Position numbers and translations under genes: made by a program. From positions 1 to 64,000 of the forward strand of contig CAMYKQ010000057.1 in the NCBI GenBank assembly GCA_947259075.1: a DNA stretch of 64,000 nucleotides, given 5' to 3'. Position 1 is the stretch's first letter. Each line of letters opens with the position of its first letter. Below, in pieces: positions 33,363-43,426 of the stretch. A model generated the notes under the pieces. The model had not been told where the DNA came from. It was given only the letters and a program-made list of their open reading frames with translations, and did not search any database. The stretch is from an uncultured Gammaproteobacteria bacterium (lineage in GTDB: Bacteria > Pseudomonadota > Gammaproteobacteria > DRLM01).

Positions 33363-34343
33363 TCAAGAAGGTCCCGTTACCCCGTGACCGGCACACGGGG
33401 CGAGCCGCAAATAATGCACGCTGAACAGCTTCCGCGCGTCCAGCCACAGCTGTTCACAGTAATAGCCCGCGCGCGCCGCCAGCGCATGGAACTCCTCGAC
33501 GGTGTATTTATAGGAATACTCGGTGCGAATTCCGTCGCCCTCTTCGAAGGAAAAGCGGTCGCCGTTAATCACGATTTCTTGTTCACGGCGGCTGACCAAG
33601 TGCATCTCCACCCGGCCCGCCGCTTCGTTGTAAAACGCCTCGTGACGAAACCACTCCAGCGCCACTTCGGCGCCCAATTCGTTTTGCACGCGCGCCAGCA
33701 AATTGAGATTGAAGGCCGCCGTCACGCCTTGAGCATCGTTATACGCGGCGTGCAGCACGCGGCGATCCTTCTTCAAATCAATGCCTATCAACAAGCCGCC
33801 GTCTTCGCGCACCAGCGCGCGCAAGCGGCGTAAAAATATCTCCGCCTCCGCGGGCTCGAAATTCCCCAGGGTGGAGCCGGGGAAAAACACCAGGCGCGGC
33901 GCGGCGGGCACCGAGCTGGGCACGACGACATCCTTGGCGTAATCGGCGCAGATGGCGTGCAATTCCATCTCTGGAAAATCGGCCTTAAGCCGTTCCGTGG
34001 ACGTCAGCAACGGGCCTTGAGCGATATCAATGGGCACATAGGCCACTGGCCGCAGAGCCTGCAAGAGTATCCGCACCTTGTCACTGCCGCCGCTGCCCAA
34101 TTCGATAATCACATGCCGCGGCGGAATCAGATATACCAAACTGGCGGCGCACTCGCGGAGAATGCTCATCTCCACCCGGGTTAAATAATATTCTGGCAAA
34201 CGGCAAATTTCACCGAAGAGAAAGGAGCCGCGCTCGTCGTAGAAAAACTTGGGAGGGATCGATTTAGGTTCGCCGCGCAAACCTTGTATCACTTCAGAGT
34301 AGAGCTGTGCCGCGGCGGGATGTTGATCGTAAAACCGCATCAT
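33363..34343 (-). CDS. egtD: L-histidine N-alpha-methyltransferase EgtD
   Basis: EgtD trimethylates histidine to hercynine with S-adenosylmethionine, the first step of ergothioneine biosynthesis. The 326-residue protein has the family start region IPPKFFYDERGSFLFGEICRLPEYYLTRVEMSIL, the SAM-binding motif ELGSGGSDKVR (81-91), LVFFPGSTLGNFEPAEAEIFLRR, and the C-terminal EYSYKYTVEEFHALAARAGY. It starts 9 nt after egtB and forms an egtB-egtD operon. No egtA, egtC or egtE homologue is in the window. EgtC is not needed where EgtB uses cysteine directly, or the later genes may lie elsewhere. Confidence 0.95.
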   Translation of the reverse strand: MMRFYDQHPAAAQLYSEVIQGLRGEPKSIPPKFFYDERGSFLFGEICRLPEYYLTRVEMSILRECAASLVYLIPPRHVIIELGSGGSDKVRILLQALRPVAYVPIDIAQGPLLTSTERLKADFPEMELHAICADYAKDVVVPSSVPAAPRLVFFPGSTLGNFEPAEAEIFLRRLRALVREDGGLLIGIDLKKDRRVLHAAYNDAQGVTAAFNLNLLARVQNELGAEVALEWFRHEAFYNEAAGRVEMHLVSRREQEIVINGDRFSFEEGDGIRTEYSYKYTVEEFHALAARAGYYCEQLWLDARKLFSVHYLRLAPCAGHGVTGPS

Positions 34344-34352
34344 GCATTCCCC

Positions 34353-35657
34353 TTATAAATCGTCCGCGAGACGGATGCCGCTGAATTGCCAGCGATCGGC
34401 GGGGTAGAAAAAATTGCGGTAACTCGCGCGCAAATGCGTGCGCGGGGTAACGCAGGAACCGCCGCGCAGCACCATTTGATTGCACATAAATTTTCCGTTG
34501 TACTCGCCGATGGCGCCCATGGGCGGGCGATAACCCGGATAAGGGGTGTAAGGACTTTGCGTCCACTCCCACACATCGCCGAATATTTGTTTGAGCTCAT
34601 CACTACCTTCAGCCACTAGTGCCGGTTGATAGATGCCGGACTCGAGTAAATTACCGGCAATGGGCTGTTCACGCGCCGCCAGTTCCCATTCGGTTTCACT
34701 CGGCAAGCGCTTGCCCGCCCAGCGGGCGTAAGCATCCGCCTCGTAAAAACTCACGTGGCATACCGGCTCAGTCTCTTCAACCGGCCGCATCCCCGCCAGC
34801 GTCATCTGCCACCACCGCCCCTCGATATGTTCCCAGTATAAGGGGGCCTGCCAGTCATTTTCCCGCAGCACGCGCCAAGCGTCGGCCAGCCAATAATGGG
34901 CGCGTTCATAGCCGCCGGATTTAATGAATTCCATGTATTCGCCGTTGGTGACCAAATGCGAAGCCAGGCGGTAAGGCGGCACGAACGCCGAGTGGCGCGG
35001 CCGTTCATTGTCGAAGCAAAAATCTTCGCCGCCATGGCCGATGCTGGCCAAACCGCCGGGATAGGTTAACCAGCGTAACGCGGCGGCCTCGCCCGCCCGC
35101 GATGGCGCGGCGGGGTGATACGCGGGCCGCAACGGATTCATCGCGAAATTGTGTTTGATGTCGGTCATCAATAATTCTTGATGTTGCTGCTCGTGATGCA
35201 GGCCCAACTCAATACGGGCGATGGCTTGCTGATCCCGCATCAAATTCAATCCGGCACACAAACGCCGCATCGCCTCATCGACATGCGCCCGGTAATCACG
35301 CACCTCGGCGGCGGCGGGCCGCGATAGCCAGCCGCGTTGCGCGCGAGGATAAAACGCCCCCATCTGTTCATAGTAGGAATTAAACAGATAAGAATAATGC
35401 GGGTGAAAGACCGTATACCCCGGCGAGAAAGGCTCCAGCACGAAGCGCTCGAAAAACCAGCTGGTGTGGGCCAAGTGCCATTTGGGCGGACTGACGAATT
35501 CCGCCGTCTGCACGCCGTAATCTTCTTCCAATAGCGGCGCGCATAATTCCAGGGTTTGGGAACGCAATTGTGGATAGCGTTCCACCACGAACGCCAGACA
35601 TCGAGACAGCGCTTTGCGCTTAGGCGGTTTTAAACTAGCCGTGCTCACCGTTTCCAT
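34353..35657 (-). CDS. egtB: Hercynine oxygenase EgtB (sulfoxide synthase)
   Basis: EgtB is a non-heme iron enzyme that forms the C-S bond between hercynine and a thiol donor (gamma-glutamylcysteine or cysteine). From the ATG at 35657 the protein has 434 residues. An N-terminal DinB-like domain has iron ligands in KWHLAHTSWFFERF and the HX3HXE motif in LGLHHEQQHQE (H155, H159 and E161). A C-terminal formylglycine-generating-enzyme-like domain follows (CHVSFYEADAYARWAGKRLPSETEWELAAR, FGDVWEWTQSPYTPYPGYRP, VLRGGSCVTPRTHLRASYRNFF). An open extension to 35822 lacks family features. Pairing with egtD makes EgtB more likely than OvoA or SenA, which share this fold. Confidence 0.93.
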   Translation of the reverse strand: METVSTASLKPPKRKALSRCLAFVVERYPQLRSQTLELCAPLLEEDYGVQTAEFVSPPKWHLAHTSWFFERFVLEPFSPGYTVFHPHYSYLFNSYYEQMGAFYPRAQRGWLSRPAAAEVRDYRAHVDEAMRRLCAGLNLMRDQQAIARIELGLHHEQQHQELLMTDIKHNFAMNPLRPAYHPAAPSRAGEAAALRWLTYPGGLASIGHGGEDFCFDNERPRHSAFVPPYRLASHLVTNGEYMEFIKSGGYERAHYWLADAWRVLRENDWQAPLYWEHIEGRWWQMTLAGMRPVEETEPVCHVSFYEADAYARWAGKRLPSETEWELAAREQPIAGNLLESGIYQPALVAEGSDELKQIFGDVWEWTQSPYTPYPGYRPPMGAIGEYNGKFMCNQMVLRGGSCVTPRTHLRASYRNFFYPADRWQFSGIRLADDL

Positions 35658-35992
35658 CGCGTGATTCCTTAGCTGGCGCATTCCAGTAAAGGATAGCCGG
35701 TATTTGCATCTCCCCCAAGCCTGCATGGGCAAGGCCGCGGACACCGGCCTCAGCGGCGAAATCACCCGCAGACATAACCTGACCGGCCATACCGCCTTGC
35801 CAAGGCGCTGCACCACGGCCAATTCACGGATTTAACATAAGTTAATTAACCGCCACTGCGTCCGATTACCTCCGTATACTTTGGCCCAGTCAGCGTCAGT
35901 CCGCCCGCTGGAACCACCTTGAATATCGTCGGCCTTTGCGACTTACTGATTGGTGCATAGTCGAGCCAATATTCACCTCGTGAGCATCAAAG
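35658..35992. other. 335-nt divergent control region between egtB and an unknown gene
   Basis: No gene is recognised. The middle becomes AT-rich and holds a 10-bp palindrome GTTAATTAAC at 35841-35850, which could be an operator for either divergent gene. Promoters for both directions are expected, but none matches consensus well enough to call. Confidence 0.4.
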
Positions 35993-36694: not shown

Positions 36695-39600
36695 TCACGC
36701 CGCGGCCTGAGCCCCCATCCGTTTCACCATCAGCGCGTAGTACAACACGGGGATCACCACCAGCGTCAAAAGAGTGGATACCAGCACGCCGAAGATCAGC
36801 GCCATCGCCAAACCGCTGAAGATAGGGTCATCAAGAATGAAGAACGCGCCGAGCATCGCCGCTAATCCGGTCAGCACAATGGGTTTGGCGCGCACCGCGC
36901 CGGCGCGGATCACCGCCTCGGCGAAGGGCGTGCCGCGCCGCGTCTCCTGATTGATGAAATCCACCAGCAAGATCGAGTTGCGCACGATGATGCCCGCGAG
37001 GGCGATCATGCCTATCATCGATGTCGCGGTGAATTTCGCGTCCATGAACAGGCTCATCAAGGCATGGCCGGGCATCACCCCGATAATCGTCAGCGGAATC
37101 GGCGCCATGATGACCAGCGGCACCAAATACGAGCGAAACTGCGCGACCACGAGCAGGTAAATCAAAATCAAACCCACCGAGTAAGCGATGCCCATGTCGC
37201 GGAAGGTATCGTAGGTCACTTGCCATTCCCCGTCCCACTTGATGCTGTACTGGTAGGGGTTGTCCGGTTGCGACAGCAAGAATTGCCGCAGCGGTTCCCC
37301 GTGTTCCCGGAGGGTCCGCGGCAGATCGGCATAGATGGAGAACATGCCGTACAAGGGGCTGTCCAACTTCCCGGCTATGTCGCCGGTAACGAACACCACC
37401 GGTAATAAATCCTTGTGATAAATCGCCTGCTCGCGCACATCCTCGCGCAGCGTCACCACTTCGGACAAAGGCACCAGCGCACCACTGGTGGCGCGCACTT
37501 TGAGATTCAACAAAAACGCCGGGGCGCTCTTTTGCTCGGCGGGCAATTCGATGCGAATCGGCACGGGATATTTGACATGGGCGCCGTGGAGATAACTCGC
37601 GTCCTCCCCCTTCAAGGCGCTGGCGATGGTGGCCGTCACCTCGGCTTGGGTCACGCCCAGCAGCGCCGCCTTTTGCCGGTCGACCTGCACATACCAGCGC
37701 CGCTGCGCCGCTTCCACGCTGTCATCGACATCGACGACATCGGGGGTCGCCTCAAACACTTCGCGCAAACGCTGAGCCACTCGCAACTGACCCGCATAAT
37801 CGAGACCGTAGACCTCGGCCACCAGCGGCGCCTGCACCGGCGGCCCCGGCGGCACTTCCACGATTTTCACATTGGCGGCGTATTTTTTGGCGATATCTTG
37901 CAACGGCGCGCGCAGCGCCAAGGCGATCTCGTGACTTTGACGCGAGCGTTTGTGCTTATCCACCAAGTTCACTTGAATATCGCCGAAATGCGGGCCGCTG
38001 CGCAGATAATATTGCCGCACCAGCCCGTTAAAATTGATGGGCGCGGCGCCGCCGGCGTAGACCTGGTAATCGCTGACCTCGGGCACCGTGGACAGGTACG
38101 CGCCCAAGTCCCGCATCACGCGCGCGGTGTGCTCCAGCGCCGTGCCCTCCGGCATATCGACGACGACTTGAAACTCCGACTTATTATCGAAGGGCAGCAT
38201 CTTCAGCACCACCAATTTAAACACCGCGAGGCTGACCGAAAGCAGGATCAACGCCACGATAGCGGCGAATAATCCCCAGCGGCGGCGGCGGCCGCGGGTC
38301 TCGTGCAAGAAGGGGCCGACTATTTTTTGAAACAGACTATAAAGCCGTCCACCCTGCGCGGCATGCTCCGTGGCGGCATGCTGCGGCGCGGTGCGCATCA
38401 CTTTGTAACTCAACCACGGCGTGAGCACGAAGGCGACTAGCAGTGAGATCAACATGCCGGTACTGGCGTTGATGGGGATGGGACTCATATACGGCCCCAT
38501 CAAACCGCTGACGAAGGCCATGGGCAGCAAGGCGGCAATGACGGTGAAGGTGGCGAGAATCGTGGGACCGCCGACCTCATCGACGGCCAAGGGAATCGCT
38601 TCCGCCAAACTTTTTCCACCCAGCTGGCGGTGACGATGAATGTTCTCCACCACCACGATGGCATCGTCCACCAAGATGCCGATGGAAAAAATTAAGGCGA
38701 ACAGCGAAACGCGATTGATGGTGAAGCCCCAGGCCCAGGAAGCGAACAAGGTGAAGGCCAGCGTTACAATCACGGCGGTGCCGACGATCAAGGCCTCGCG
38801 ATAACCCAGCGCCCACCACACCAGCAACACCACCGAGAGGGTCGCGAATACTAATTTGGTGATGAGCTTGATGGCTTTATCATTGGCGGTCTCACCATAA
38901 TTGCGGGTGACCGTCACGTGCACGCCGTCGGGAATCAGCGTGCCCTTCAGCGCCTCGACGCGGTCTATCAGGGCATCGGCGATATCGACCGCGTTACTGC
39001 CCGGCTTCTTGGCGATAGCGAGGGTGACGGCGGGAAACTCGCCGCGCGCGCCGATATTTTTTTGCGCCGCGGCGGCGCCGCTGCCGAACCACACATACTG
39101 CTCCGGCTGATCCGCGCCCCGGCTCACCGCCGCGACATCGCGCAGATACACCGGCGCGCCTTGATGCAGACCCACGACCAAACCCGCCACGTCCTCCACG
39201 CTGCTTAAGAGACTGCCCGCGCGCACCAGCACCTCTTGATTGTCCGAGGTCAGCGCGCCGGCCTCATGCGCGACATTGAAGACTTGCAGCGCCGCGCGCA
39301 AATCCGCGACGGTAATGTGATGCCCCGCCATGCGCTGGCTGTCCAGCAACACATGCACCACTTGATCGGTGCCGCCGAGGGTATATATATCCCGCGTGTC
39401 CGGCACCCGTTTCAGGTCCACCTCCATGGCGTGGGCCACCTGTTGCAGATCGAAGGCGCCGCGCTGCGCGTCATCGGTCCACAAGGTGAAGGTGACGATG
39501 GGCACATCGTCGATGCCCTTGGGTTTGACGATGGGCTGGCCCACGCCGAGATTTTGCGGCAGCCAATCCTGATTGGAAAACACCGCATTATAGAGTCGAA

Positions 39601-39937
39601 CGATGGCCTCGGTGCGCGGCTCGCCGACATCGAACTGCAGCGTCAACACCGCCAAGCCCGGTTGCGACACCGAGTAAACATGCTTCACGCCTTCGAGTTC
39701 CGACAAGACCTGCTCCGCCGGCGTGCTGACAACCTGCTCCACTTCCTGCGCCGTCGCGCCGGGGAAGGGCACGAAGACGTTGGCGAAGGTGACATCAATC
39801 TGCGGCTCTTCCTCGCGCGGCGTCACCAGCACCGCGAATACGCCCATGAGCAAACCCACCAGCGCCAGCAGCGGCGTGATTTCAGAATGAAGAAATTTTT
39901 TGGCGATAACGCCGGAGATGCCCAGCCGTTCACTCAT
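36695..39937 (-). CDS. RND efflux transporter permease (AcrB/TriC-like)
   Basis: RND permeases use the proton gradient to pump substrates across the inner membrane to a periplasmic adaptor and outer-membrane channel. The 1080-residue protein has the N-terminal helix (ITPLLALVGLLMGVFAVLVTPREEEPQIDV), two large periplasmic loops, and twelve expected membrane helices. The TM4 proton-relay motif GILVDDAIVVVENIHRH includes D424/D425. The REEEPQIDV opening is typical of TriC-like hydrophobe/amphiphile pumps rather than CusA metal pumps; no Met-rich copper path was noticed. Its ATG overlaps the adaptor gene's stop by 8 nt. No outer-membrane channel gene lies nearby, so a TolC encoded elsewhere is presumed. 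Confidence 0.93.
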   Translation of the reverse strand: MSERLGISGVIAKKFLHSEITPLLALVGLLMGVFAVLVTPREEEPQIDVTFANVFVPFPGATAQEVEQVVSTPAEQVLSELEGVKHVYSVSQPGLAVLTLQFDVGEPRTEAIVRLYNAVFSNQDWLPQNLGVGQPIVKPKGIDDVPIVTFTLWTDDAQRGAFDLQQVAHAMEVDLKRVPDTRDIYTLGGTDQVVHVLLDSQRMAGHHITVADLRAALQVFNVAHEAGALTSDNQEVLVRAGSLLSSVEDVAGLVVGLHQGAPVYLRDVAAVSRGADQPEQYVWFGSGAAAAQKNIGARGEFPAVTLAIAKKPGSNAVDIADALIDRVEALKGTLIPDGVHVTVTRNYGETANDKAIKLITKLVFATLSVVLLVWWALGYREALIVGTAVIVTLAFTLFASWAWGFTINRVSLFALIFSIGILVDDAIVVVENIHRHRQLGGKSLAEAIPLAVDEVGGPTILATFTVIAALLPMAFVSGLMGPYMSPIPINASTGMLISLLVAFVLTPWLSYKVMRTAPQHAATEHAAQGGRLYSLFQKIVGPFLHETRGRRRRWGLFAAIVALILLSVSLAVFKLVVLKMLPFDNKSEFQVVVDMPEGTALEHTARVMRDLGAYLSTVPEVSDYQVYAGGAAPINFNGLVRQYYLRSGPHFGDIQVNLVDKHKRSRQSHEIALALRAPLQDIAKKYAANVKIVEVPPGPPVQAPLVAEVYGLDYAGQLRVAQRLREVFEATPDVVDVDDSVEAAQRRWYVQVDRQKAALLGVTQAEVTATIASALKGEDASYLHGAHVKYPVPIRIELPAEQKSAPAFLLNLKVRATSGALVPLSEVVTLREDVREQAIYHKDLLPVVFVTGDIAGKLDSPLYGMFSIYADLPRTLREHGEPLRQFLLSQPDNPYQYSIKWDGEWQVTYDTFRDMGIAYSVGLILIYLLVVAQFRSYLVPLVIMAPIPLTIIGVMPGHALMSLFMDAKFTATSMIGMIALAGIIVRNSILLVDFINQETRRGTPFAEAVIRAGAVRAKPIVLTGLAAMLGAFFILDDPIFSGLAMALIFGVLVSTLLTLVVIPVLYYALMVKRMGAQAAA

Positions 39938-41000
39938 GGCGTGCCGCCTGCTGCTTCAACAACAAGGCCGCCTGCACCGGATCGAGCGCGACGCGTTCAC
40001 CCTCACTAATACCGGCCAGCACTTCCATCACATCGTCAAAACGGGCGCCGGGGCGGATCTGGCGCATACTAATCCGCCCTGAGTCATCCACCACGTAGAC
40101 CGCGGTCACCTCGCTGCGCTGCGCCACCGCCTGCCGCGGCACGACTAAGCGGCGCTGCTCACCCAATGCAAAGGCCGCTTTGACGAAGGCGCCGGGATAA
40201 ATGCCGCCGGTTCCATCAGGCAGACCCAGCCGCACCTTGACGCTGTGGCTTTGGACATCGGCATAGGGAAACACCGTCACCGAGCTGGCCGCGACACTGC
40301 GCGGCGTCTCAGTGCCGAGCAGCACGCGCGCCCGCGCCGTGCCGCGTACGCTGTCGGCAATACTTTGCGGCAACTGCACCAGCACCCGTAATTGATCCAA
40401 GGACAGCCCCGTCATCAAAGGCTGACCGGCTTGCACCGTCTCCCCCACCTCCACATGCCGCGCGACGACGATGCCGCCATAGGGCGCGCGCACCACCGTG
40501 TTGGCTAAGGTCTCTTGCATGGTTTGAATTTGCGCCTCCGTCGCATTCATCCGCGCCTGCGCCGCCGCGTAGGCCGCCGCGGCGCGATCGCGATCCGCCG
40601 CGGAAACCAGCTTACGTTCGTAAAGATTTTTCATACGGCGGAATTCGGTCTCGGCCTCATCGAAGCGCGCCTTGGCCTCTTCCCGTGCCGCCTTAGCCTC
40701 GGCCAAACGCGCCTTTTGCTCCTTATCGCGAAACCGGATCAATACAGCGCCCTTGGGTACCACGTCATCCACATCAAAATGGATTTCGTCGATACGGGCC
40801 GACACCTGCGCGGCCACGGTGGATTGCTTGACCGCTTCCACCACCCCGTCGAACACCCGTTCCTCGGCGATGAGGTGGTACGCGGCTGCCGTGACGGGCA
40901 AAGGCTCATCCGCCGCGCCCAAGGCGGGAAATCCCAGCGTCAGCCCCAGCACCGCCGCCAACAGGGCCGGGGTGAATTCGCGATATGAGCGATATGACAT
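39930..41000 (-). CDS. RND efflux periplasmic adaptor (membrane fusion protein)
   Basis: Adaptor subunits link the RND pump to an outer-membrane channel. The 356-residue protein has a signal peptide (ALLAAVLGLTLGFPALGAA, cleavage near residue 30), a lipoyl/barrel-sandwich segment (VFDGVVEAVKQSTVAAQVSARIDEIHFDVDDVVPKGAVLIRF, with its partner APYGGIVVARHVEVGETVQAGQPLMT), and a helical hairpin with Ala/Glu/Lys-rich coiled coil (about 110-175). Beta-barrel and membrane-proximal domains follow. It is the first gene of the two-gene efflux operon. The control region upstream holds a palindrome over the likely promoter. Confidence 0.92.
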   Translation of the reverse strand: MSYRSYREFTPALLAAVLGLTLGFPALGAADEPLPVTAAAYHLIAEERVFDGVVEAVKQSTVAAQVSARIDEIHFDVDDVVPKGAVLIRFRDKEQKARLAEAKAAREEAKARFDEAETEFRRMKNLYERKLVSAADRDRAAAAYAAAQARMNATEAQIQTMQETLANTVVRAPYGGIVVARHVEVGETVQAGQPLMTGLSLDQLRVLVQLPQSIADSVRGTARARVLLGTETPRSVAASSVTVFPYADVQSHSVKVRLGLPDGTGGIYPGAFVKAAFALGEQRRLVVPRQAVAQRSEVTAVYVVDDSGRISMRQIRPGARFDDVMEVLAGISEGERVALDPVQAALLLKQQAARHE

Positions 41001-41017
41001 GGCCTTACTATCCTTGC

Positions 41018-41062
41018 TAACTAATTATGATATTAGAATATCATTATATTTCTGCAAGTCAA
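41018..41062 (-). promoter_or_regulatory. Promoter/operator region of the efflux operon with a perfect 18-bp palindrome
   Basis: The palindrome ATGATATTAGAATATCAT (41027-41044) lies between a TTGACT -35-like box (41057-41062) and the adaptor start at 41000, over the expected -10. A 14-bp element TAACTAATTATGAT (41018-41031, forward strand) overlaps it and recurs at 41793-41806 at nearly the same distance from the DsrE-like gene start. The layout is typical of a repressor operator. The regulator is not in the window. Confidence 0.6.
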
Positions 41063-41236
41063 ACCTTCTCCACTAGCTCTTCCATATAGCTGCCACATAG
41101 ATAGCTGGGTGGGTTGCACAGAACACCTAACCCAGCGCCACGACAACACAAAAGAGATATGTATTAGCTTGTTATCAAGGAGTAAGTGGAAAATTTCTCC
41201 GTCGGCGGCAAGCACGCTGACCGGTAAGATCCCTGC

Positions 41237-41298
41237 TTCTCCGTAGCAACACGGAGAAATCCATATCGGTGGCCAAACCCCACATCGGCGGCCAAACC
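41237..41298. repeat. Hairpin and tandem 18-bp repeat downstream of the DsrE-like gene
   Basis: Two near-identical units (CATATCGGTGGCCAAACC at 41262-41279 and CACATCGGCGGCCAAACC at 41281-41298, 16 of 18 identical, period 19) lie just after the DsrE-like gene stop. An 8-bp stem TTCTCCGT/ACGGAGAA (41237-41258) follows further downstream on the minus strand. No U-run is present. The rest of the 305-nt gap 41001-41305 is AT-rich with no gene seen. Confidence 0.55.
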
Positions 41299-41305
41299 TA
41301 TGGTT

Positions 41306-41773
41306 TTATATGAATAGACTCACATCGGATTCGCCAGCAAACTCGAAATAGGTCGCGGCGCCGCCATAGTCGATACCGTCGATAAAATCCTCCCGGCTAA
41401 AATCGAAAAGGTCTATCGTCATCTGGCAACCAATCATCTTCACCCCCGCCTCGATACATAAACCCCGCAGCTCTTCCACGCTGGCCACGCCTTTGGTCTG
41501 GATTTTTTTCTTCATCATCGTGGTCATAAGAGCCTGCATGCCGGGCAAGGCCTGCAACAACACCGGCATGGGCAAGGGCATGGGCATGGCCGGATTCCCC
41601 AAGGAGCTCACTTGCAAATTCAAATTTTTTCGCAGCAATTCCAAGCCGTAAAAGGTGAAAAACATTTTGGTCTCGTAACCCAGCGCCGCAGCGGTGGACG
41701 CGAGAATAAACGGGGGATAGGCCCAATCCAGGCTGCCCTTGGTGGCGATAATCGCGAGTTTCTTGCTAGGCAT
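41306..41773 (-). CDS. DsrE/DsrF/DrsH-like (DsrE2-type) sulfur-trafficking family protein
   Basis: The 155-residue protein opens with KLAIIATKGSLDWAYPPFILASTAAALGYETKMFFTFYGLELL, the DsrE-like Rossmann-type start. Its second half has Cys106 (ELRGLCIEAGVKMIGC) and Cys116 (GCQMTIDLF); the latter is the position used for persulfide carriage in DsrE2-type proteins. A Met/Pro-rich stretch lies at about 63-70 and a Met-rich helix at about 79-88. DsrE2 proteins are found with rhodanese and TusA in sulfur oxidisers. Here it stands alone beside an efflux operon and shares an upstream 14-bp element with it. Substrate and partner are unknown. Confidence 0.82.
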   Translation of the reverse strand: MPSKKLAIIATKGSLDWAYPPFILASTAAALGYETKMFFTFYGLELLRKNLNLQVSSLGNPAMPMPLPMPVLLQALPGMQALMTTMMKKKIQTKGVASVEELRGLCIEAGVKMIGCQMTIDLFDFSREDFIDGIDYGGAATYFEFAGESDVSLFI

Positions 41774-41792
41774 AATGCTTTGTTCCCGCCGT

Positions 41793-41806
41793 TAACTAAT
41801 TATGAT
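41793..41806 (-). promoter_or_regulatory. Second copy of the 14-bp element upstream of the DsrE-like gene
   Basis: TAACTAATTATGAT (forward strand) lies 20 bp from the gene start at 41773, against 18 bp for the copy before the efflux adaptor gene. The neighbourhood is AT-rich. An imperfect inverted partner (TTAATTATT, 41815-41823) follows. Co-regulation of the two transcription units is the simple reading. Confidence 0.5.
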
Positions 41807-41938
41807 GAATTGCCTTAATTATTGCGGCAGTCAGCCACTACCGCATAAGCCATATACGATGACACAGCCCGCGCGCGCGCAACAAGCCGCTAGCCGCGCG
41901 GATGGAAACACGGCCGCTGATAGATTATGGTGGTAACA

Positions 41939-43426
41939 ATGAACTCCAGAAAACTAGAACAAGCCCAAGCACTTCACCGTCCGCGGGCGCGCTGGCTTAC
42001 CCTCTTCCTATTTTTAGCCGTGCCGGCCTGGGCCGCGGAGCCCATGCCCAACATCGTGCTCCCCGACTTCGGCGACGCCGCCACCACGGTCATCTCGCCC
42101 TTGGAGGAACAGCGTCTGGGCCAGGAGTTCATGCGCGCCCTGCGCCAATCGGTGAAGATCACCGACGACCCCGAAGCCAGCGAATACATCCAAAACCTCG
42201 GTTACCGTCTGGTGGCCCATGCCGATCAACAGGCTTATCCCTACACTTTTTTCCTAGTGGAGAATCCCAGCGTCAACGCCTTCGCCGGACCGGGGGGCTA
42301 CATTGGCGTACACAGCGGCTTGATCCTCGCCAGCGAAAATGAAAGTGAATTGGCCTCGGTGCTGGCGCATGAAATCGCCCACGTCACCCAACATCACCTC
42401 TTGCGCGCCTACGACAAATCCAACCGTCTGGCCCTGCCCGCCACCGCGGCCTTGATGGCGGCGCTGATCCTCGCCGGTCAAAACGCGCAAATAGGCACCG
42501 CGGCGGTGGCGGCCACCCTGGCCGGCAGTCAGCAGGCGGCGATCAATTTCACCCGCGCCCACGAGTTGGAGGCGGACCGGGTCGGCCTGCAAATCCTCGC
42601 CGGCGCCGGTTATGACCCGCGCAGCATGCCCGCCTTTTTCGAGGAACTGCAACAGGCCAATCGCTTCTACGCCAGCGGCGCGCCCGAACTGCTGCTTACC
42701 CACCCGGTAACCACCTCGCGCATCGCCGACACCCGCAACCGCGCCGAACAATACCCAAAGATAAACACCGCCAACCCCCTCAGCTTTCAATTGATACGCG
42801 CCAAACTGCGGGTGCTCACCAGCAAAGACCCGCAAACCTTGCTGACGTATTTTGAAAACAAATTAGAAGAGGCCAAACCCGCGCAAGCCGGCGCCGAGCG
42901 TTACGGTTATGCCTTGGCCCTGCTCGCCGCGGGTCAAGCCGACAAGGCGGACGAACAGATAAATCTGCTGCTTAAAAACGATCCGGACCGCATTCAATAC
43001 CGCTTGGCGCAAGGCCAGATCGCCGCGGCGCGGGGCGGCTCGGACGCGGCCTTGAAGATCTACGCCGAGGCATTGAAACTTTATCCGCGTGACTACCCGC
43101 TCACCGCGGCCTATACCCGCGAACTGCTGCAGACCAAACAAGCCGTGCCGGCGCGGCTGCTATTACAAGATTATCTGCGCACCCGCGAGCCGCGCCCGCT
43201 GGTGTACAAACTGCTGGCACAGGCGGAAAACGACGCCGGCGCGCCCATCGAATCACAACAAGCCTTGGCGGAATTCGCCTATTTGAACGGCCAGACCCAA
43301 GCGGCCATCGACCACCTCAACCAGGCGCTGAGTTTGACCAAGAAAGATGATTTTTACCGCGCCTCACGCATCGAAGCACGCTTAAAAGAATTCAAACAAG
43401 AGGCCGCGCTGGCGCTCAAACCCTAA
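41939..43426 (+). CDS. bepA: BepA-type periplasmic M48 metalloprotease with TPR domain
   Basis: BepA (YfgC) acts in the periplasm as a chaperone and zinc protease that promotes outer-membrane protein assembly by BAM and LPS transport, and degrades stalled substrates. From the ATG at 41939 the protein has 495 residues. It has a signal peptide (LTLFLFLAVPAWAAEP, cleavage near 33), the M48 domain with zinc motif HEIAH (H144, E145, H148) and RAHELEADRVGL, and the loop motif THPVTTSRI, equivalent to the regulatory His loop. A C-terminal TPR region (about 280-490) follows. An ATG four codons upstream is possible. It is divergent from the DsrE-like gene and converges on the TerB gene. Confidence 0.92.
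   Translation: MNSRKLEQAQALHRPRARWLTLFLFLAVPAWAAEPMPNIVLPDFGDAATTVISPLEEQRLGQEFMRALRQSVKITDDPEASEYIQNLGYRLVAHADQQAYPYTFFLVENPSVNAFAGPGGYIGVHSGLILASENESELASVLAHEIAHVTQHHLLRAYDKSNRLALPATAALMAALILAGQNAQIGTAAVAATLAGSQQAAINFTRAHELEADRVGLQILAGAGYDPRSMPAFFEELQQANRFYASGAPELLLTHPVTTSRIADTRNRAEQYPKINTANPLSFQLIRAKLRVLTSKDPQTLLTYFENKLEEAKPAQAGAERYGYALALLAAGQADKADEQINLLLKNDPDRIQYRLAQGQIAAARGGSDAALKIYAEALKLYPRDYPLTAAYTRELLQTKQAVPARLLLQDYLRTREPRPLVYKLLAQAENDAGAPIESQQALAEFAYLNGQTQAAIDHLNQALSLTKKDDFYRASRIEARLKEFKQEAALALKP

Follow-up and report, generated by a model that had tools for sequence, protein, structure and literature searches.

A conserved candidate operator may connect an RND efflux operon with a distant two-cysteine ArsR regulator in an uncultured gammaproteobacterium

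The closest described systems are the persulfide sensors BigR, SqrR, YgaV, HlyU, and SoxR, which combine an ArsR fold with a pair of cysteines. In YgaV, this pair (C31 and C98) forms a tetrasulfide bridge, and the site of SqrR reads ATTC-N8-GAAT (PMC9774250). Sites of the BigR/SqrR type are AT-rich and lie over the core promoter, and the operon of the Xylella BigR regulator itself encodes a persulfide-dioxygenase-like enzyme and TauE. A gene-neighbourhood survey has already reported RND genes near sulfane-sulfur ArsR genes (PMC12423496). Two other papers describe repressors of multidrug resistance genes, MexR and MarR, that are relieved by reactive sulfur (PMC11211675, PMC8614764); these belong to the MarR family, whereas the binder predicted here is an ArsR protein.

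The regulator considered here, an ArsR protein encoded on contig C26 of the same genome, has two conserved cysteines (in ILC and YC) that align with YgaV C31/C98 and, like the Xylella BigR, shares its operon with a persulfide-dioxygenase-like enzyme and a TauE-like exporter. Unlike the known persulfide sensors, it has a distant RND operon as a predicted target. The survey worked from gene neighbourhoods, whereas the link proposed here runs through an operator that is conserved and belongs to a pump whose genes lie far from the regulator; no site consensus was found in the accessible text of the survey. The consensus that we describe, ATATTAG-N6-CTAATAT, was likewise not found in the accessible literature on two-cysteine ArsR sensors, and a literal text search for its half-sites returned unrelated papers only. 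The novelty lies in an operator that is conserved, that would connect a distant RND operon with the sensor, and that recurs across one RND subfamily.

The window is the whole stretch of DNA that was analysed (64 kb). Within it, positions 41001-41830 hold the intergenic DNA before the adaptor-RND operon, the DsrE2 gene, and part of the space before an M48 gene. The features are as follows:

36695..39937, minus strand: RND permease gene (1080 aa, PF00873), overlapping the adaptor gene
39930..41000, minus strand: RND periplasmic adaptor gene (356 aa, TIGR01730)
41018..41031, plus strand: 14-mer TAACTAATTATGAT, copy 1, ending about 18 bp from the adaptor start codon
41027..41044, no strand: palindrome ATGATATT-AG-AATATCAT, two 8-bp arms with an unpaired 2-bp centre (AG)
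41030..41049, no strand: predicted operator ATATTAG-AATATC-ATTATAT, two mismatches to ATATTAG-N6-CTAATAT, top-scoring position of the window for a matrix derived from other genomes
41035..41062, minus strand: promoter-like match TTGACT-16-TATTCT for the efflux operon (consensus match only), with its -10 inside the operator
41306..41773, minus strand: gene for the sulfur carrier protein DsrE2 (155 aa, NF047629 and PF13686), directly upstream of the adaptor-RND operon
41793..41806, plus strand: 14-mer TAACTAATTATGAT, copy 2, ending about 20 bp from the DsrE2 start codon, with no operator around it
41942..43426, plus strand: M48 metalloprotease gene, divergent from DsrE2, a neighbour with conserved order

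The initial annotation had described this region as AT-rich, with a 14-mer close to the adaptor and DsrE starts and a perfect 18-bp palindrome overlapping the likely efflux promoter. Both copies of the 14-mer are where it placed them, and the GC content is 48-53%, against about 60% elsewhere. The palindrome does overlap the TTGACT-16-TATTCT match and has two 8-bp arms; its centre is unpaired, so the symmetry does not extend over all 18 bp. The DsrE2 protein scores 283.5 bits against NF047629 (cut-off 210), which makes it a member of the rhd-tusA-dsrE2 cluster, although, unlike in that cluster, rhd and tusA are not adjacent. A terminator scan of the gap between DsrE2 and the adaptor gene found no intrinsic terminator, so read-through from DsrE2 is possible. 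The same gap contains a tandem 19-bp repeat (CCAYATCGGYGGCCAAACC, 41261-41298) and a hairpin with 8-bp arms (TTCTCCGTAGCAACACGGAGAA, 41237-41258). A contig scan of genomes with the adaptor as query returned distant RND adaptors only, which were left out of the analysis.

The fuller form of the motif, ATATTAG-N6-CTAATAT, was first met in other families, ahead of related adaptor genes, and it is from relatives that the register of the predicted operator, shifted by about 4 bp from the palindrome, is taken. We counted as operators sites with at most 2 of 14 mismatches to this consensus. The efflux promoter has 2/14, both in the right half, and its site, 29 bp before the adaptor start, ranks first among all positions of the window (26.1 bits, next 14.2) with a matrix built from 33 sites outside this genome. 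The predicted operator is AT-rich and lies over the core promoter, as BigR/SqrR-type sites do, and it has the same ATT-N10-AAT spacing as the SqrR site.

Pattern searches of the whole genome place the palindrome ATGATATT-AG-AATATCAT at this position only, even when up to 2 mismatches are allowed. Its core, ATATTAGAATA, has exactly two exact occurrences, one in the adaptor promoter and one in the promoter of the C26 ArsR gene. The latter promoter reads TTGACA-ATATTAGAATAAGATAA-TATAAC; the site occupies the spacer and extends into the -10, and it is identical to the adaptor operator at 17/20 positions. At up to 2 mismatches, ATATTAG-N6-CTAATAT has four sites in this genome (control, 0)—i.e. the ArsR promoter, the adaptor promoter, a site 20 bp before a gene for an exported protein, and one other. 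The earlier proposal of a repressor encoded elsewhere, possibly of the ArsR type and responsive to reactive sulfur, is supported for the efflux promoter by the C26 gene, with its near-identical site in its own promoter. The exported protein (194 aa) is outer-membrane-protein-like and has no Pfam or NCBIfam match; the site about 20 bp before its gene is a perfect ATATTAG-N6-CTAATAT (L278 4243-4262; C28:22242 in this genome).

Ahead of orthologous adaptor genes, the operator is conserved at distances of 24-53 bp. In a first set, which includes the adaptor promoter of this genome and from which the consensus was read, 11/20 adaptor promoters carry the motif at up to 2 mismatches (0.04 in shuffles). 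Because this set had shaped the consensus, we took 40 fresh genomes, and 23 of these 40 adaptor promoters have the motif, compared with 0.08 in shuffles and 0/40 for the reversed motif. With no more than 1 mismatch allowed, the sum over 56 genomes is 126 sites for the motif and 21 for the reversed pattern. A fully syntenic relative, G132 (ANK-TerB-M48-DsrE2-adaptor-RND), has a perfect operator 28 bp before the adaptor gene, and G003, the closest of the relatives that share the gene order of the window, has a degenerate site only (13.6 bits).

In some relatives, regulator and pump are neighbors. In G022, a BigR-type gene is divergent from the adaptor gene with a site between them, and in G027, a BigR-type gene follows an RND gene that itself has a perfect site in its promoter. 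G254 (L402 9012-10717) has an ArsR-adaptor-RND operon in one direction, led by the BigR-type ArsR gene and divergent from a protein that resembles sulfide:quinone reductases, below the cut-off. No motif was found at this operon at up to 3 mismatches, and another operator may therefore be used in G254.

The C26 ArsR gene heads an operon that also encodes a small membrane protein, the persulfide-dioxygenase-like enzyme (an MBL-fold protein whose matches to Blh- and GloB-type models stay below cut-off), and the TauE-like protein, recognised by sequence. The regulator has an ArsR/SmtB winged helix (PF01022, 47.6 bits; NF033788, 76.1 bits, cut-off 55), and its best match among solved structures is an ArsR-family regulator, followed by YgaV and BigR. 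Its score against the BigR equivalog NF040642 is 63 bits, below the cut-off of 155, and we therefore call it BigR-type rather than BigR. When the ArsR genes of relatives are sorted into types by identity to the two proteins of this genome (C26 and the rhodanese-linked C19 paralogue), the motif is found in the promoters of 8/10 BigR-type genes with the cysteine pair, 3/25 rhodanese-linked two-cysteine paralogues, and 0/5 ArsR genes without the cysteines. The two remaining BigR-type genes comprise one with 3 mismatches and one behind an RND gene with a perfect promoter copy. Among characterised promoters, that of E. coli ygaV, which has been studied by experiment, resembles the motif only to the degree expected by chance (4 mismatches, P = 0.31), and that of hlyO fits only marginally (P = 0.065).

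We consider it likely that the operator at 41030-41049 is bound by the two-cysteine C26 ArsR repressor and that reactive sulfur derepresses the adaptor-RND operon; judged from sequence, persulfides acting through this protein are the most likely inducers. In such a scheme, the repressor would, when reactive sulfur is absent, sit over the -10 regions of two promoters, its own and that of the adaptor-RND operon. A persulfide or polysulfide would then bridge the two cysteines and release the DNA, and the dioxygenase, the TauE exporter, and the RND pump would be induced together for detoxification and export. The cargo of the pump may be sulfur compounds, or compounds that these make toxic. Some of the observations above weigh against this scheme: the two mismatches in the right half of the window site, the degenerate site of G003, the poor fit of the ygaV and hlyO promoters, and the G254 operon without the motif.

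A less probable reading, which we nevertheless take seriously, is that the rhodanese-linked C19 protein binds the site, or that C19 and C26 share it, as SoxR and sHdrR of Hyphomicrobium have common binding regions (PMC12423496). C19 has the same cysteine pair as C26 and a similar recognition helix, and in G085 the adaptor has a C19-type gene a few genes upstream. Furthermore, for several genomes that carry the motif before the adaptor, a homology search found no BigR-type gene and the C19 orthologue as the sole two-cysteine ArsR, so this second ArsR could bind there, and perhaps here. However, the C19 promoter lacks the motif, both here and in 22/25 loci of its type, and we favor C26 as the binder because its promoter has the site. 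A far weaker contender is a LysR-type regulator whose gene, in many relatives, comes after that of the RND permease. The motif also fits T-N11-A, and 7 loci of the first set and 14 of the second have, behind the RND gene, a LysR gene that shares more than 60% identity with one reference; yet 13/23 motif-bearing fresh loci have no LysR gene within the stretch fetched, and no orthologue is present in G026, G041, G022, or G027, all four with the motif at the adaptor. The gene is also absent from the genome studied here, for which we reject it as the binder.

Two other readings concern the local sequence. The palindrome could be nothing but an AT-rich promoter region with accidental symmetry, given that 8-bp arms arise in 9/500 shuffles of the local 100 bp; conservation in the independent set (23/40 fresh promoters) contradicts this, and we regard it as highly improbable. 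Somewhat less remote, though still improbable, is the initial proposal that the 14-mer is the working element through which one regulator co-controls the efflux operon and DsrE2. The two exact copies are the only ones in the 3.1-Mb genome, they stand at near-identical distances from the adjacent starts, and a 14-mer common to two 100-bp promoters appears in 1/3000 shuffles. At up to 2 mismatches, its total number of matches in the genome equals that of the reversed-pattern control. One such match near the C19 ArsR gene (2 mismatches) was dismissed since it lies inside the coding region of that gene. Copy 1 overlaps the conserved operator by 2 bases only, so the 14-mer is not the operator itself, and copy 2 stands without a palindrome, with an imperfect 8-bp inverted repeat alone. 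Relatives that share the gene order lack the 14-mer, and its best match has at least 4 mismatches at every adaptor or DsrE2 promoter examined in relatives, and 5 in the fully syntenic G132. The 14-mer that the two promoters have in common is thus a genuine local repeat.

Regulation of DsrE2 through the predicted operator, with C26 as its probable binder, is not supported by the sequence of this genome. The best candidate in the DsrE2 promoter has 7 mismatches, outside the threshold, and its score of -4.1 bits places it 62nd in the window, and in G132 the operator lies solely between DsrE2 and the adaptor, the DsrE2 promoter being without one. This differs from rhd-tusA-dsrE2 operons elsewhere in the class, where the motif is found upstream in 5/18 genomes examined (0.07 in shuffles), with one mismatch in G040 and G014. 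The proposed pairing of export with sulfur handling therefore exists in the class, and is not demonstrable in this genome.

The motif also precedes a rhodanese gene in relatives, and in G039, G053, and G048 it stands before genes for sulfur globule proteins (L297 3055 and L304 3060, PF17228; L303 261 and L319 5146 and 6110, similar Gly/Tyr-rich proteins), which suggests a wider sulfur regulon. It is quite possible, and we propose tentatively, that one RND subfamily, widespread in the class, serves specifically for export when cells respond to reactive sulfur, and that a single conserved operator places it under common control with persulfide dioxygenase, sulfur carriers, and sulfur globule proteins. 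The main reading offers an uncharacterised RND efflux subfamily a signal that is probable and a regulator that can be tested. It also makes the regulons of sulfur oxidisers searchable, as the motif stands in relatives before genes for sulfur globule proteins, a rhodanese, and persulfide sensors. RND export would be tied to sulfide tolerance, a link known so far from neighborhood surveys and MarR-type examples.

Other genes near these loci deserve mention. A conserved LysR-type gene follows the RND gene at L202 (12347-13255), with similar genes in L203, L207, L208, L209, L210, and L212, and in G020 a LysR-type gene adjoins dsrE2. Just past the RND operon of the window (33363-35822) are two EgtD-/EgtB-like genes of ergothioneine synthesis, recognised by eye only, which may represent another link to sulfur.
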